Origin: Acidimicrobiales bacterium
Lineage (GTDB): Bacteria; Actinomycetota; Acidimicrobiia; Acidimicrobiales; VFJN01
Assembly: GCA_030681555.1 (NCBI GenBank)
Contig: JAUXRW010000139.1
Span: forward strand, 1-49,294
Direction: 5' to 3'
Length of the DNA stretch: 49,294 nucleotides
Below, piece by piece: positions 3,319 through 10,311 of this stretch. The stretch's first letter is position 1. Each line of letters begins with the position of its first letter. The notes beneath the pieces were generated by a model that saw nothing but the letters and a program-made list of their open reading frames with translations, was not told the origin of the DNA and did no database searches. The translations under genes were made by a program, and so were the position numbers.

Positions 3319-3498
3319 ATGGCCGTCCCGAAGAAGAAGACCTCCAAGGCCAAGAGCCGCAGTCGCCGGGCCAGCGCCTGGACGCTGGAGCGGCCCTCGC
3401 GGAGCCTCTGCTCCCGCTGCGGTGCCACCAAGGTGCCCCACGTGGTCTGCGGCAACTGCGGCTGGTACGCCGGCCGCCAGGCCATCGACGTCGACTGA
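3319..3498 (+). CDS. rpmF: 50S ribosomal protein L32 (Zn-ribbon type)
   Basis: MAVPKKKTSKAKSRSRRASAWTLERPSRSLCSRCGATKVPHVVCGNCGWYAGRQAIDVD. Confidence 0.97.
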   Translation: MAVPKKKTSKAKSRSRRASAWTLERPSRSLCSRCGATKVPHVVCGNCGWYAGRQAIDVD

Positions 3499-3534
3499 GC
3501 TGCTTGCTCGCTCCGGGCGTCGCTGCGCTCCTGC
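3496..3534. repeat. 39-bp intergenic repeat copy 1 (overlaps rpmF stop codon)
   Basis: tgagctgcttgctcgctccgggcgtcgctgcgctcctgc, identical to 3586-3624. Confidence 0.85.
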
Positions 3535-3585
3535 CTCCGCTCGTGCCGGCTGCCGGGCGGCGGAGCCACCCGGCCCGGCCTCGGT

Positions 3586-3624
3586 TGAGCTGCTTGCTCG
3601 CTCCGGGCGTCGCTGCGCTCCTGC
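3586..3624. repeat. 39-bp intergenic repeat copy 2
   Basis: Identical to 3496-3534, offset 90 bp. Confidence 0.85.
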
Positions 3625-3667: not shown

Positions 3668-4666
3668 ATGGGCATGTTGCCGGTGGCGGTGGATGGGATG
3701 GGCGGGGACAGGGCGCCCTCGGAGATCGTCGATGGCGCGCGGCGGGCCGTCGCCGAGCTCGGGGTCCCCGTGGTGCTCGTGGGACAGCCGGAGGTGCTCG
3801 AGCCGCTGGCCGGCGACCTCCCGATCATCCCGGCGTCCGAGGTCATCGCCATGGACGCCGACCCCGGGTCGAGCGTCCGCCGCATGAAGGACTCCTCCCT
3901 TGTGCGCGCCGCCGAGGCGGTCCGCGACGGCAAGGCCTCGGCCATGATCTCGGCCGGCAACACCGGCGCCACCATGGCGTCGGCCCTGCTCCGCATGGGC
4001 CGGATCAAGGGCGTCTCCCGACCGGCCATCGCCACGCCGATCCCCGTCCCGGGCCACCGGCCCACCGTCCTCCTCGACGCCGGCGCCAACGCCGAGTGCA
4101 GCGCCGAGCTGCTCGTCCAGTTCGCCCAGATGGGCACCGTCTTCGCTCGCGAGCGTTACGGCGTCGCCGAGCCCCGGGTCGGCCTCCTGTCGATCGGGGA
4201 GGAGCCCACCAAGGGCACGTCGCTCGTCAAGGAGACGCACCAGCTGCTCTCGGCGTCGAGCACCCTCGTGGCTGCCGGCGGACGGTTCGTCGGGAACGTC
4301 GAAGGCCGCGACGTCATGACGCCCGACGTCGACGTCGTCGTCACCGACGGGTTCACCGGCAACATCGTGCTCAAGACGCTCGAAGGCGGCATGCGGGCCC
4401 TGGTCGGCGCCATCCTCGAGGCCTTCGCCGCCAGCGCCGAGGCGAAGGCGGCCAGCGACGTGCTCCTCCCGGGCCTGCTGCCGCTCTACGCCACCCTCGA
4501 CCCCGACAACACCGGCGGGGCGATGCTCCTCGGCGTCGACGGGCTGTGCCTCATCTCCCACGGCTCCTCGTCCGCCACGGCCGTCGTCAACGCCGTGCGG
4601 GTGGCCCGGGAGCTGCACGACTCAGGCATCGTCGAGCACCTCCGCCTGGCCGTCGCCCCTACCTGA
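3668..4666 (+). CDS. plsX: Phosphate acyltransferase PlsX
   Basis: MLPVAVDGMGGDRAPSEIVDGA, ISAGNTGATMASAL, DGFTGNIVLKTLEG. Confidence 0.96.
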   Translation: MGMLPVAVDGMGGDRAPSEIVDGARRAVAELGVPVVLVGQPEVLEPLAGDLPIIPASEVIAMDADPGSSVRRMKDSSLVRAAEAVRDGKASAMISAGNTGATMASALLRMGRIKGVSRPAIATPIPVPGHRPTVLLDAGANAECSAELLVQFAQMGTVFARERYGVAEPRVGLLSIGEEPTKGTSLVKETHQLLSASSTLVAAGGRFVGNVEGRDVMTPDVDVVVTDGFTGNIVLKTLEGGMRALVGAILEAFAASAEAKAASDVLLPGLLPLYATLDPDNTGGAMLLGVDGLCLISHGSSSATAVVNAVRVARELHDSGIVEHLRLAVAPT

Positions 4667-4783
4667 GGCCGCGCCAGCCCCGGGAACCCGGGCCTCTGGC
4701 CCGCTCGTCGGGCACAAGCGCACAAAGTCGGCGGACCGATATGCTCGGCCCGCCAAACGCCCCCGCGAGCAGGAGCAGCACCC

Positions 4784-5071
4784 GTGCCCGCAGAAACCCA
4801 CGTCGAACGAGGACCCATGGATCGCCAGCAGGTCTTCGAGCTGATCCGCGACCGGCTCGCGGACATCCTCGAGGTCGAACCGTCCACCATCACCGAGGGC
4901 GCCAGCTTCAACGACGACCTCGAGGCCGACTCGCTCGCGCTGATCGAGCTCGTCGAGGCGCTCGAGGAGGAGCTCAGCGAGCGCTCCGTCGGCTTTCGCA
5001 TCGACGACGAGGACCTCGAGGACCTGAAGACGGTGCGGGACGCCGTCGACTACGTCGTCGGCCGGCTGTAA
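4784..5071 (+). CDS. acpP: Acyl carrier protein
   Basis: DDLEADSLALIELVEALEEEL phosphopantetheine serine motif; plsX-acpP-rnc order. Confidence 0.93.
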   Translation: MPAETHVERGPMDRQQVFELIRDRLADILEVEPSTITEGASFNDDLEADSLALIELVEALEEELSERSVGFRIDDEDLEDLKTVRDAVDYVVGRL

Positions 5072-5077
5072 GGCGGC

Positions 5078-5809
5078 ACGATCGCTCTCCCGGTACCCGG
5101 TCTGGCAGACCTGGTCGAGCGCCTCGGCCTCGACCTCGCTCCCGACCTCCTGGCGCCGGCCCTCGTGCACCGCTCCTGGTGCGCGGAGAACCCCGGGCAC
5201 CCCTCGAACGAGCGGCTCGAGTTCCTCGGCGATGCGGTGCTCGGCGCCGTCGTCACCGACCACGTGTACCGGACCCATGCCGACCTCGACGAGGGCGACC
5301 TCACCGAGATCCGCAAGACGGTCGTGAACTCCGTGGCGCTGGCCGGCGTCGCCGTCGAGCTCGATCTCGGCCCGCACCTGCTCCTCGGCAAGGGCGAGCT
5401 CCTCTCGGGCGGACGCGAGAAGCCCTCGATCCTCGCCGACGCGGTGGAGGCCCTCATCGGAACGGTCTACCTGAACGAGGGTCTCGAAGGCGCGCAGGAC
5501 CTCGTGCTGCGCATCCTCGGTCCTCGGCTCGCCACCGCGCAGGCCGACGGTGCCGATCACAAGAGCCGCCTGCAGGAGCTGGCTGCCCGCCGCTTCGGCG
5601 CCCCGCCGCGCTACGCAGTGGAAGCCACCGGACCCGACCACGCGCGCACCTTCTACGTCACCGTCACCATCGCCGAGACGGAGTTCGGCCACGGCGAGGG
5701 CCGATCGAAGAAGCAGGCGGAGCAGGCGGCTGCTCGTGCCGCCGTCGACGCCCTGGCGGGCGGCACCGCGACCCACCCCGGACCACTGAGGGAGAGCAAC
5801 CATGGCTGA
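5078..5809 (+). CDS. rnc: Ribonuclease III (start codon apparently ACG at 5078; first canonical in-frame start is GTG 5165, inside the conserved domain)
   Basis: HRSWCAENPGHPSNERLEFLGDAVLGAVVTDHVY signature, DAVEALIGTVYLNEG, C-terminal dsRBD. Confidence 0.9.
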   Translation, partial: TIALPVPGLADLVERLGLDLAPDLLAPALVHRSWCAENPGHPSNERLEFLGDAVLGAVVTDHVYRTHADLDEGDLTEIRKTVVNSVALAGVAVELDLGPHLLLGKGELLSGGREKPSILADAVEALIGTVYLNEGLEGAQDLVLRILGPRLATAQADGADHKSRLQELAARRFGAPPRYAVEATGPDHARTFYVTVTIAETEFGHGEGRSKKQAEQAAARAAVDALAGGTATHPGPLRESNHG

Positions 5810-6638
5810 GCTACCCGAGCTCGAGACCCTCCGGCGCGAGCTGGAGAAGGAGGCCGTGGGCAAGCGCTTCAAGGCGCCGGAGGTCACGGGCACGAAGGTC
5901 GTCCGCCACAACGGCTCCAAGAAGGTGTTCCAGAGCCGCCTCGAGGGCGCCAAGGTGAAGTCGGTCGACCGCAAGGGCCGCCACCTCGTCACCAACCTCG
6001 ACAACGGCGAGCTCCTCGTCATCGAACTCGGCGCGGCCGGCCGCCTCGAGAAGGTGGCGCCGAAGTCGACGCCTCCGAAGGGGACCGCCGTCGTCTTCAG
6101 CTTCACCCAGGGAGGCCAGATCCGACTCGTCGACGCCACCGGCGGCGCCGAGGCCTTCGTCGTGGCCCACGACGCCCTCACCGCCGAGGTCCCGGTCATC
6201 GCCGCCGGAGGGCTCGACCCCGTCGCCGACGCCGTGTCGTGGACCTCCTTCGCCCGGGTGCTGCTGGCCCGGTCGGCCAAGCTCAAGACCGTCCTCATGG
6301 ACCCTGAGGTCGTCGCCGGGATCGGCCCGATCTACAGCGACGAGATCCTCTGGGAGGCGGGTTTGCGCCACGACCGCACCTCGGACTCGCTGTCCTCGCA
6401 GGAGATCCGCCGCCTCTTCCGCGCCCTCGTCGAGACGCTCCACGAGGCCGTGAAGCACCGCGGCACCACGGTCGACGACCACCCGTTCGTCGATCTCTAC
6501 GGCAAGCCCGGCGGCTACCAGGACGAGCTCAAGGTCTACGCCCGCGAGGGCGAACCCTGCCGTCGCTGCCGGGCGCCGATCGTCAAGGTCCGCTTCTCCA
6601 ACAAGCCGCTGTACTTCTGCGAGGCCTGCCAGGTGTGA
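5802..6638 (+). CDS. Fpg/Nei (MutM-like) family protein with substituted catalytic N-terminus
   Basis: MAELPELETLRRELEKEAVGK (canonical MPELPEVE), H2TH-like region GIGPIYSDEILWEAGL, Cys4 Zn finger CRRC...CEAC. Confidence 0.9.
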   Translation: MAELPELETLRRELEKEAVGKRFKAPEVTGTKVVRHNGSKKVFQSRLEGAKVKSVDRKGRHLVTNLDNGELLVIELGAAGRLEKVAPKSTPPKGTAVVFSFTQGGQIRLVDATGGAEAFVVAHDALTAEVPVIAAGGLDPVADAVSWTSFARVLLARSAKLKTVLMDPEVVAGIGPIYSDEILWEAGLRHDRTSDSLSSQEIRRLFRALVETLHEAVKHRGTTVDDHPFVDLYGKPGGYQDELKVYAREGEPCRRCRAPIVKVRFSNKPLYFCEACQV

Positions 6639-6656
6639 GCCGTGGCTGTCTGGCTG

Positions 6657-6686
6657 CTCCGGGCGTCGCTGCGCTCCTGCCTCCGC
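6657..6686. repeat. Third copy of intergenic repeat core
   Basis: ctccgggcgtcgctgcgctcctgcctccgc identical to 3511-3540; a degenerate copy ggcgtcgctgcgctccc follows at 6761-6777. Confidence 0.8.
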
Positions 6687-6825
6687 AGCTGCGGCTCGGG
6701 GCGGCGAAGCCACCCTGTCGCCGCCTCCGTGCCTGTGCCGGCCCGCAACTGGCGCGCCGAGGCGTCGCTGCGCTCCCGCGGCAGGTGCCTCGACGGCCGG
6801 GGAGCGGCCACTACTGTCGCCGGGA

Positions 6826-9800
6826 GTGTTCCTCAAGACCCTCACGTTGAAGGGCTTCAAGTCCTTCGCCGACACGACCGCCCTCGAGCTCGAACCCGGG
6901 GTCACCGTCGTGGTGGGGCCGAACGGAAGCGGGAAGTCCAACGTCGTTGACGCCATCGGGTGGGTGCTGGGCGCACAGGCGCCGTCGGCGGTGCGCTCGC
7001 AGAAGATGGACGACGTCATCTTCGCCGGCACCGCCAAGCGCCCGGCGCTCGGGCGGGCCGAGGTCGGGCTGACCATCGACAACTCGGCTGGCCTGCTGCC
7101 CATCGAGTTCACCGAGGTGACCCTCACCCGCACACTGTTCCGCTCCGGGGACAGCGAATACGCCATCAACGGTGTGCCCTGCCGTCTCCTCGACGTGCAG
7201 GAGCTGCTCTCCGACACCGGCGTCGGCCGGCAGCAGCACGTGATCGTCAGCCAGGGCCAGATCGACGCGGTGCTCAATGCCCGCCCCGAGGACCGTCGGC
7301 TGATCATCGAAGAGGCCGCCGGCATCCTCAAGTTCCGCAAGCGCAAGGAGAAGGCCGAACGCCGCCTCGCGGCGACGGAGGGGAACCTCACGCGCCTCGG
7401 TGATCTGCTGCGCGAGGTCCGGCGCCAGCTGCGCCCGCTCGAGCGCCAGGCGGACGCCGCCCGGCGCCACGGGTCGCTCATCGCAGAGCTGCGGGGCCTG
7501 CACCTGTTCCTCGCCGGGCGCGAGCTGACCACCCTGCGCCGGCGACTCGCGGACGGCGGGGCGGCACGAGCCGAGCTGGCCAACGAGGAGGCGCTCGTCC
7601 GCCGCACGCTGGCCACCTTGGATGCGTCGGTGATGGCCGCCGAGTCGGAGCTCGGGCACCTTGGGGGCGACAACCTCGGGGACGCCCTCGTCCGCTACGA
7701 GTCGCTGCGCGAGCGGGCCCGCGGGCTGGCGGCCGTCCTGACGGAACGACGTCGTGGCCTCGATCGCGAGCGCGGCGCCTTCGTCGACCAGGCCGTAATC
7801 GCCACCCTCGAGGCCGAAGCGGCCCGGCTCGGCGCCGAGCTGGCCGAGGTGGAGGCGGAGGCGGAGGGCCTCGCTCCCCAGGCGGAGGAGCTGGAACGGG
7901 CCGAAGCGGCCCTCGCCGCTGCCCGCCGCACGCACGACCGTGAGTGGGCTGACGGCGTGCCCGCGCCCACGGGCCGGGCCGCTGAGGCGCGGGGCGAGCT
8001 GGCCGCCCTCCGAGCCGGCCAGGAGCGCGGCGAGGCGGAGCTCACCCGGGCGCAGGCCCGCTTGGGCGTGCTGGGGGAGAAGCTGAGGCGCCTGGCGGTC
8101 GAGGCCGAGCGCCTCCGCGCCGAGGCGACTCAGGCGGAGGAGGCGGAGGCCCCGCTGGTCGCCCGCCTCGCCGACGCCGAGGCGAAGCGGAGCGCGGCGG
8201 AGGCGCAGGTGGGCGATGCCGACGCCGCGCTGCGAGCGGCGGATGGTGAGCGCCATGCCTGGACCGCCCGCGCCGAGGCCCTCGCACTGGCGCTCGATGA
8301 CGCTCGTTCCCGCGCCGGCGCCGAACGTCTGGCATCGGTGAGCGGGGTGGTCGGCACGCTGCTCGACCTGGTCGACATCGACGCCGGCTGGGACGCCGCC
8401 GTCGAGGCGGCGGCCGGCGAAGCTCTCGCAGCAGTGGTCGTCGACGGCGTCGACGCCGCCCGCCGCGCGCTGGCGACGCTGCTCGACGCCGGCGGCGGAG
8501 GCGAGCCGGCAGCTGGTGCCGTGCTCGCCCTCGGCGCGGTCCGCCCCGGGGGGACGGCGCCCGCCTTGGGCACACCGGTGCGCACGCACGTCCGGGCCGC
8601 CCGCCCCGACGTGGAGGCGCTCCTGGACGCGCTGCTCGGCCAGGCCGTGTGCGTGGACGGCGGCTGGTCCGCCGCCGTCGACATCGCGCTGGCCCACCCG
8701 GAGGTCGTGGTCGTCACCCGGGACGGCAGCCGCTTCGGCGTGACCGGCTGGAGGGTCGGCACCGCCTCGACGGGCGCGACCGGCGCCGCGCTGGAGGAGG
8801 CGAGGGGCCGCGCCGCTGAGGCGAGCGCGGCGGCCACCCACGCCGAAGCCAGCCTGCACGGCGCGCGCTCGCTGCTCGACGAGGCCCGCCAGCTCGAGGC
8901 CGCCCTCGCCCGCCAGCTCGACGAGCACGACGGTCGCCTCACCGCCGCCACAGAAGGGTTGCAGCGCGTGGAGGCCGACCGGCGCGATGCCGCCACCGAG
9001 GAGGAGGCGCTGCGCAGCCACGCCTCGGAGCTGTCCGACCGCACGAGCCGCGAGGAGGCGCGCGTGGCGGAGCTCGAGGCCTCGCTGCCGCTGCTGGAGG
9101 CGGAGGAGGCCGTCGCCGCGGAGCGGGCGCAGGCCATGGCGGCGGCCAAGGCCGACCTCGAGCAGGCGGCCGCCGAGACCGGGAGCCTGCGCGGCGACCT
9201 CGAGGTGCGCTCGGCCGGCCTCGACGACCGCCGCCAGTTCCTTCGTCGGCGCCTCGCTGAGGTGGAGGCCCGGCTGGAGGGCTCGATGGAGGCCCGGCGC
9301 GAGGCCGAGGTGCGGCGTGCCGACCTCGACGCGCGGCAGACCGCGCTCGACCGCTTGGCGGCGTTGGTGGGCTCGCGCCTCGCCGGAGTGGAGGACGAGC
9401 TCGAGGGGCTGCGCGAACGCCGCCGGCGCCAGACGGAGACGCAGCGCGCCGCCGCCACCCGCCTCGACGGCCTCCGGCACGAGCGGGCCGACGCCGAGCG
9501 CCGGCTCGAGGAGACCCGCGAACGGGCTCGGCGGGCCGAGCTCGAGGAGGCCGAGATCACGCTCCGCCTCGAGGCAGCCGTGGAAGCCGTCCGCCGAGAC
9601 CTCGACGCCGAGCCGGATGCCGCAATGGCCGCGACCCCGCCGGAGCTGCCCGAGGGCGCCACCCCGACGGCACGGGCTCGCGAACTGGAGCGCGAGCTCC
9701 GCCTGATGGGGCCGATCAACCCGCTGGCCCTCGACGAGTTCGACGCGCTGCAGGAGCGCCACGAGTTCCTGCAGGGCCAGCTCGACGACGTGAAGGCCTC

Positions 9801-10311
9801 CCGCCGAGATCTCGCCAAGGTCATCAAGGCCATCGACGGCGAGATCGTCGACGTCTTCGCGGGGGCCTATGCCGACGTCTCCCAGAACTTCGAGCAGCTG
9901 TTCCAGACGTTGTTCCCGGGCGGCACCGGCCGGCTGCGCCTCACCGCCCCGGACGACCTGCTGGAGACCGGCATCGAGGTCGAGGCGAAGCCGTCGGGCA
10001 AGAACGTCCGCAAGCTTTCGCTCCTGTCCGGCGGCGAGCGCTCGCTCACCGCCCTGGCGTTCCTCTTCGCGGTCTTCCGCAGCCGGCCCTCGCCCTTCTA
10101 CGTGATGGACGAGGTCGAGGCGGCCCTCGACGACGTCAACCTCCACCGCTTCCTCGACCTCGTCCGCGAGTTCCGCCAGGAAGCGCAGCTGATCATCGTC
10201 AGCCACCAGAAGCGCACGATGGAGGCCGCGGACATCCTCTACGGCGTCACGATGCAGCCTGGTGGCAGCAGCACGGTGATCAGCGAGCGAGTCACAGCCG
10301 GCACCGCCTAG
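6826..10311 (+). CDS. smc: Chromosome segregation protein SMC
   Basis: FLKTLTLKGFKSFADTT, GPNGSGKSNVVDAI Walker A, long coiled coils and hinge, LSGGERSLTALAFLFAVF / YVMDEVEAALDDVN. Confidence 0.98.
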   Translation: MFLKTLTLKGFKSFADTTALELEPGVTVVVGPNGSGKSNVVDAIGWVLGAQAPSAVRSQKMDDVIFAGTAKRPALGRAEVGLTIDNSAGLLPIEFTEVTLTRTLFRSGDSEYAINGVPCRLLDVQELLSDTGVGRQQHVIVSQGQIDAVLNARPEDRRLIIEEAAGILKFRKRKEKAERRLAATEGNLTRLGDLLREVRRQLRPLERQADAARRHGSLIAELRGLHLFLAGRELTTLRRRLADGGAARAELANEEALVRRTLATLDASVMAAESELGHLGGDNLGDALVRYESLRERARGLAAVLTERRRGLDRERGAFVDQAVIATLEAEAARLGAELAEVEAEAEGLAPQAEELERAEAALAAARRTHDREWADGVPAPTGRAAEARGELAALRAGQERGEAELTRAQARLGVLGEKLRRLAVEAERLRAEATQAEEAEAPLVARLADAEAKRSAAEAQVGDADAALRAADGERHAWTARAEALALALDDARSRAGAERLASVSGVVGTLLDLVDIDAGWDAAVEAAAGEALAAVVVDGVDAARRALATLLDAGGGGEPAAGAVLALGAVRPGGTAPALGTPVRTHVRAARPDVEALLDALLGQAVCVDGGWSAAVDIALAHPEVVVVTRDGSRFGVTGWRVGTASTGATGAALEEARGRAAEASAAATHAEASLHGARSLLDEARQLEAALARQLDEHDGRLTAATEGLQRVEADRRDAATEEEALRSHASELSDRTSREEARVAELEASLPLLEAEEAVAAERAQAMAAAKADLEQAAAETGSLRGDLEVRSAGLDDRRQFLRRRLAEVEARLEGSMEARREAEVRRADLDARQTALDRLAALVGSRLAGVEDELEGLRERRRRQTETQRAAATRLDGLRHERADAERRLEETRERARRAELEEAEITLRLEAAVEAVRRDLDAEPDAAMAATPPELPEGATPTARARELERELRLMGPINPLALDEFDALQERHEFLQGQLDDVKASRRDLAKVIKAIDGEIVDVFAGAYADVSQNFEQLFQTLFPGGTGRLRLTAPDDLLETGIEVEAKPSGKNVRKLSLLSGGERSLTALAFLFAVFRSRPSPFYVMDEVEAALDDVNLHRFLDLVREFRQEAQLIIVSHQKRTMEAADILYGVTMQPGGSSTVISERVTAGTA

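Follow-up and report, generated by a model that had tools for sequence, protein, structure and literature searches.

MutM (Fpg) is a textbook repair enzyme. Among the described proteins closest to the locus studied here, the M. tuberculosis protein Mtb Fpg1, encoded next to rnc, retains its catalytic residues at the N-terminus and has been characterised as the major Fpg (PMC2734929); this locus is thus ancestrally one of repair. Mycobacterial Fpg2 (Rv0944) is a truncated homologue without the catalytic N-terminus that occurs with an intact Fpg alongside (PMC2734929). In M. smegmatis Nei2, the P2A change abolishes lyase activity while 5-OHU glycosylase activity is kept, the K51A change abolishes both activities, and NEIL3, in which Val stands where Pro is expected, is nevertheless functional (PMC11323726). 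Because Nei2 P2A and the Val-bearing NEIL3 are active, an alanine at residue 2 would not by itself prove that an enzyme of this fold is dead.

The stretch of DNA analysed here, referred to as the window, comprises 49,294 nucleotides from an Acidimicrobiales bacterium. On its + strand lies a gene (CDS 5802..6638) for a full-length MutM/Fpg-fold protein of 278 aa, a putative pseudoenzyme, whose translation (5802-6635) starts with MAELPELETLRREL. The gene is flanked by rnc and smc. The rnc (RNase III) ORF extends over 5165..5809 on the + strand, listed from a GTG with the frame open further upstream, and its TGA stop codon at 5807-5809 overlaps the start of the mutM-like gene by 8 nt. Downstream on the same strand, smc occupies 6826..10311 (+, 1161 aa). 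The Pfam domains PF01149, H2TH and zf-FPG_IleRS all score above cut-off in the window protein, and the NCBIfam equivalog model for fpg, TIGR00577, accepts it with 203.5 bits against a cut-off of 203.3, a margin of 0.2 bits. An AlphaFold2 model predicts a confident MutM fold (pLDDT 92.5) whose best PDB match is MutM 1r2y (E 2e-31, TM 0.92). A first-pass annotation, made from the letters of the window, had taken the gene for a MutM/Fpg homologue at the rnc-smc position with its fold intact; the ORF layout and the domain matches bear out the assignment, and the domain scores together with the predicted structure agree with the intact fold.

Alignment of the window protein to Bst MutM and canonical relatives, with canonical residues numbered as in Bst MutM, confirms each of the substitutions that had been read by eye at P2, K60, M77, R112/F114, N174 and the zinc-finger Arg. 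Ala2 (codon GCT, 5805..5807, +) replaces the N-terminal catalytic Pro. Arg60 (codon CGC, 5979..5981, +), in the context DRKGRHL, replaces the phosphate-contacting Lys (K57 in E. coli Fpg, K60 in Bst MutM), which is Lys in Bst MutM, in the second Fpg of the same genome and in all canonical orthologues whose sequence extends over this position. The void-filling triad Met/Arg/Phe is absent: Ala78 (codon GCG, 6033..6035, +; LGAAG) stands in place of M77, and Thr-Gly-Gly (6138..6146, +; VDATGGAE) in place of Arg-x-Phe (R112, F114), leaving T113 and G115 at the two triad positions. Similarly, Pro176 (codon CCG, 6327..6329, +) replaces N174, turning GNIY into GPIY. In the zinc finger (6558..6629, +), all four Cys (253, 256, 273, 276) are kept and R264 has become Lys268 (6603-6605, +). 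The window protein also keeps E3, E6 and Y178 (Y176 in Bst MutM).

As such, the window protein resembles canonical Fpg/MutM (TIGR00577, 1r2y, Mtb Fpg1) in its fold, length, three domains, place after rnc, E3/E6/Y176 and Cys4 finger, but it lacks the catalytic Pro, the phosphate-gripping Lys/Asn/Arg and the void-filling Met/Arg/Phe, and is not expected to excise 8-oxoG. It shares with vertebrate NEIL3 (PMC11323726) the natural swap of the N-terminal Pro for a residue that permits Met removal; unlike that active glycosylase, it is also without the substrate-holding residues, so that Lys60, Asn174 and Arg264 do not fit the comparison. With mycobacterial Fpg2 (Rv0944; PMC2734929) it has in common that an actinobacterial Fpg homologue lacks the catalytic N-terminus while an intact Fpg is present alongside, whereas Rv0944 is truncated and the full-length window protein occupies the Fpg1 (rnc) position, with the active-looking Fpg elsewhere. 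Since Ala2 comes together with the absence of Lys60, of Asn174, of the finger Arg and of the whole void-filling triad, normal Fpg catalysis is very unlikely, and we consider it highly probable that the window protein has none.

Across the genus, of which four species were sampled, residue 2 is A, T, A and A, the window's own being Ala, so that Ala or Thr occupies this position in 4/4, and the three other species show hallmark losses identical to those of the window protein at the remaining sites. Two of these other sequences were found also in a separate contig collection (L008, L009). Orthologues in the same state rule out a single-strain change or error. All sampled species of the family are without the other hallmark residues, and its sister genera keep Pro2 although K60, M77, R112/F114 and N174 are already gone; in this family, therefore, Pro went after the gripping residues. 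The first-pass annotation had regarded the change of Pro to Ala as the key anomaly. This emphasis does not hold in view of the Pro-keeping sister genera that lack the other residues, which also rule out loss of the nucleophile as the sole anomaly, and it is the joint loss that is decisive.

The rnc-smc orthologue was taken from 195 genomes of an order sample (199 drawn, four not scorable), most of them metagenome assemblies, and scored at five substrate-contacting residues (K60, M77, R112, F114 and N174). Loss of these residues is bimodal: 104 orthologues had lost none or one, none had lost exactly two, and 91 had lost at least three, with 75 of the latter lacking all five. On this scoring, 104/195 rnc-smc MutM proteins are canonical and 91/195 degenerate. 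Degenerate members occur in 23 of the 62 families and canonical members in 40, the state being fixed within every family except f23. Pro2 survives in 14/91 degenerate orthologues and E3 in 69/91, while E3 is changed in 20/91. Both rnc and smc flank the gene on the same strand in 83 of the 91 degenerate loci, one flank having been found for the remaining copies. Degenerate and canonical copies alike have a median overlap with rnc of 8 nt, and they do not differ in their distance to smc.

A search for a canonical mutM elsewhere in the window's own genome (G000, 3.28 Mb, 162 contigs) found one on contig C65 at 4422-5222 (L002, L232), with MPELPEVETVRR, GKY, LGMTG, RRFG, GNIY and the finger Arg all present. 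Its neighbours are a gene for RNase J on one side and one for FtsK on the other. The second Fpg is present in 7/7 genomes of the window's family (f1) and is preceded by the RNase J gene in all seven; when about 1.5 kb on each side was examined, no neighbour of the second Fpg was common to all families. With a criterion of E <= 1e-30 to the C65 protein, which captures one Fpg type, a second canonical Fpg is found in 82/91 degenerate genomes of the order sample vs 0/104 canonical ones (Fisher p 3e-45, a value that ignores relatedness and does not make each genome a separate piece of evidence, most degenerate rows falling in one clade). The full canonical set of residues is carried by 29/29 second-type sequences inspected from degenerate genomes (L232-L260, own included), and the second Fpg accompanies a degenerate copy also outside the order sample (G200, G201, G202 and G204).

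Nine degenerate genomes are without the second Fpg: one from f6 (G005), three from f59, two from f55 (G055, G129), one from f18 (G017) and two from genus g72 of f23. Replacement is therefore not strict, and these exceptions rule out that degenerate copies depend strictly on the second Fpg. In the two f55 genomes the degenerate protein persists in its absence, which argues against a role as a subunit of the second Fpg. The forms from f59 (L146, L147, L157) and f6 (L106) are only partly degenerate and fall close to the base of the main clade of degenerate copies, where they are possible intermediates; those of f59 have Ala2, with Arg112 and Asn174 kept in two of three. Their position suggests that erosion could start before, or without, the second Fpg. 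Four further Fpg/Nei homologues are encoded in the window's genome (on C147, C2, C86 and C159; L003-L006), two with Nei-like starts (MPEGHT, VPEGDT), one starting MPELPEVQ and one MPEMIEVE; such other homologues are common in the surveyed genomes and may share the repair work.

With the second Fpg as root and the hallmark columns excluded, MutM trees nest the order's degenerate rows within the canonical rnc-smc clade, and the degenerate copies are shown by this placement to descend from canonical rnc-smc MutM. Most degenerate rows of the larger tree form one clade (SH-aLRT 92), while f6, the g72 pair and a lineage from outside are placed apart, which suggests four degenerations: the main clade, f6, g72 in f23 and the outside lineage. 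By an AU test, a single clade uniting all degenerate rows from the order is not rejected (p 0.27), a tree of Rnc and SMC from these loci requires six changes and is weakly supported, and since all of these are quick trees with long branches the number of origins is not fixed by them. The clearest case of separate degeneration is g72, a single genus in which both states occur: two of its loci, L350 (G194) and L358 (G075), are degenerate with no second Fpg found, and three others are canonical. Degeneration in g72 was probably a recent, separate event. The two degenerate g72 genomes are small (1.5 and 1.7 Mb). A Nitriliruptoraceae row (L038) grouped with f41 in the larger MutM tree and elsewhere in the other MutM tree, and its grouping with f41 is probably long-branch attraction.

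The window protein thus shows what marks a pseudoenzyme: catalytic residues are gone from a full-length, selected descendant of an active family. It is probably a MutM pseudoenzyme, without 8-oxoG glycosylase or AP-lyase catalysis and kept folded for a non-catalytic role, and a selected role of this kind is likely. The first-pass annotation had suggested a MutM homologue that is catalytically dead but intact in its fold, and this is well supported by the joint loss of hallmark residues, the persistence of the degenerate state in the genus and far beyond it, purifying selection, the MutM-fold model and the second Fpg.

A non-catalytic role could consist in binding damaged or bent DNA through the H2TH region and the zinc finger without cutting it, as the DNA-binding or lesion-sensing protein that the first-pass annotation had considered. 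The window protein keeps both elements, no part of the proteins in the degenerate set is better conserved than the H2TH, and with Arg60 and Lys268 still basic the groove charge of the window protein is +3, with which weak DNA binding is possible. Charge in the wider set runs against such a role. At fifteen positions picked from general knowledge of MutM-DNA contacts, the mean groove charge is +5.1 in canonical but +0.2 in degenerate copies, and the mean net charge of the whole protein is +6.8 and -1.3, respectively. Losses cluster at catalytic and DNA-contacting sites (P2, R35, K60, H74, M77, H93, R112, F114, N174, R264 and the Cys residues); K60, H74, H93 and N174 are often neutral or acidic instead, and the zinc Cys are replaced in many degenerate families. 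Taken together, DNA or lesion sensing seems an unlikely function.

Less probable again is an enzyme that still works, either as a monofunctional glycosylase or as a lyase of altered specificity, using the amine of Ala2 or Thr2 after Met removal much as NEIL3 would use that of Val. Ala and Thr as residue 2 allow removal of the initiator Met, and Glu3 and Glu6 are both kept in the window protein. NEIL3 with its Val and the 5-OHU glycosylase activity of Nei2 P2A provide precedent (PMC11323726). However, the residue corresponding to Nei2 K51, which is essential for both activities, is Arg60 in the window protein and Leu or others in most degenerate relatives, and N174, M77, R112, F114 and R264 have been lost jointly. 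In other degenerate families, residue 2 is frequently one of I, L, F, R, M, N and Y, with which the initiator Met would stay; where relatives do not have a bulky residue 2, some lack a start codon where Met1 would be, and no N-terminal amine is expected there. We consider continued catalysis quite improbable on these grounds.

A decaying remnant without any role as a protein, kept by nothing but its position in the operon, would fit the conserved overlap with rnc and the unchanged distance to smc, as well as the two small g72 genomes that carry a degenerate copy and no second Fpg. It fits the pattern of substitution poorly and is very improbable. Pairwise Nei-Gojobori dN/dS within genera, computed from finite dS only with saturated pairs left out, is 0.06-0.33 for degenerate and 0.075-0.13 for canonical copies, well below 1; judged by these ratios, selection on the degenerate copies is purifying, if somewhat relaxed. 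ORFs are full length in 23 families, and across the degenerate set 57 positions show a conservation of at least 85%. These include K24, K51, R57, R192, R203, R204, R207 and K218 (query numbering), of which K24, K51 and K218 are better conserved in degenerate than in canonical copies. A sequencing or assembly artefact can be dismissed, for although the genomes are mostly metagenome assemblies, the same state recurs with intact frames in 91 genomes of the order and, within the genus, in four separate ones.

With the window protein read as a selected MutM pseudoenzyme, 8-oxoG repair would have been handed over to the second Fpg, and the old rnc-smc protein would thereby have been released from catalysis. 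The degenerate MutM might now serve as an adaptor or structural protein, perhaps through contacts to a protein, or weak ones to nucleic acid, within the function of the operon (RNase III, SMC). Only the position of the gene points to a connection with SMC or RNase III, and the naming of any particular partner, such as SMC, is doubtful. Equally tentative is the broader proposal that rnc-smc MutM turned more than once into a dedicated non-catalytic partner in chromosome or RNA processing, working with SMC or RNase III, after or while the second Fpg took over repair; if it is true, the canonical rnc-smc MutM of other actinobacteria already has a hidden second, non-catalytic function.

In open-licence full texts, we found no report of a retained degenerate rnc-smc MutM, and nothing direct on Fpg P1G or Lys57 mutants or on Acidimicrobiia MutM. 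A catalytically erased MutM that is kept under selection across a clade at its ancestral locus amounts to a natural experiment, one that separates the catalytic job of the rnc-smc gene from any other role it may have. Since TIGR00577 still accepts the window protein, a genome of this kind is credited with an active MutM at rnc-smc, and for such proteins annotation can be wrong at scale.

The region around the gene also carries a GC-rich interspersed repeat with the core GCTCCGGGCGTCGCTGCGCTCCTGC, at window positions 3486-3534, 3576-3624 and 6632-6680 and also at 6762-6776; the first two make up the occurrence at about 3486-3624, and the others belong to the interval that separates the mutM-like gene from smc. 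The repeat is REP-like, with 13 copies in the genome at up to 2 mismatches vs 0 for a control.
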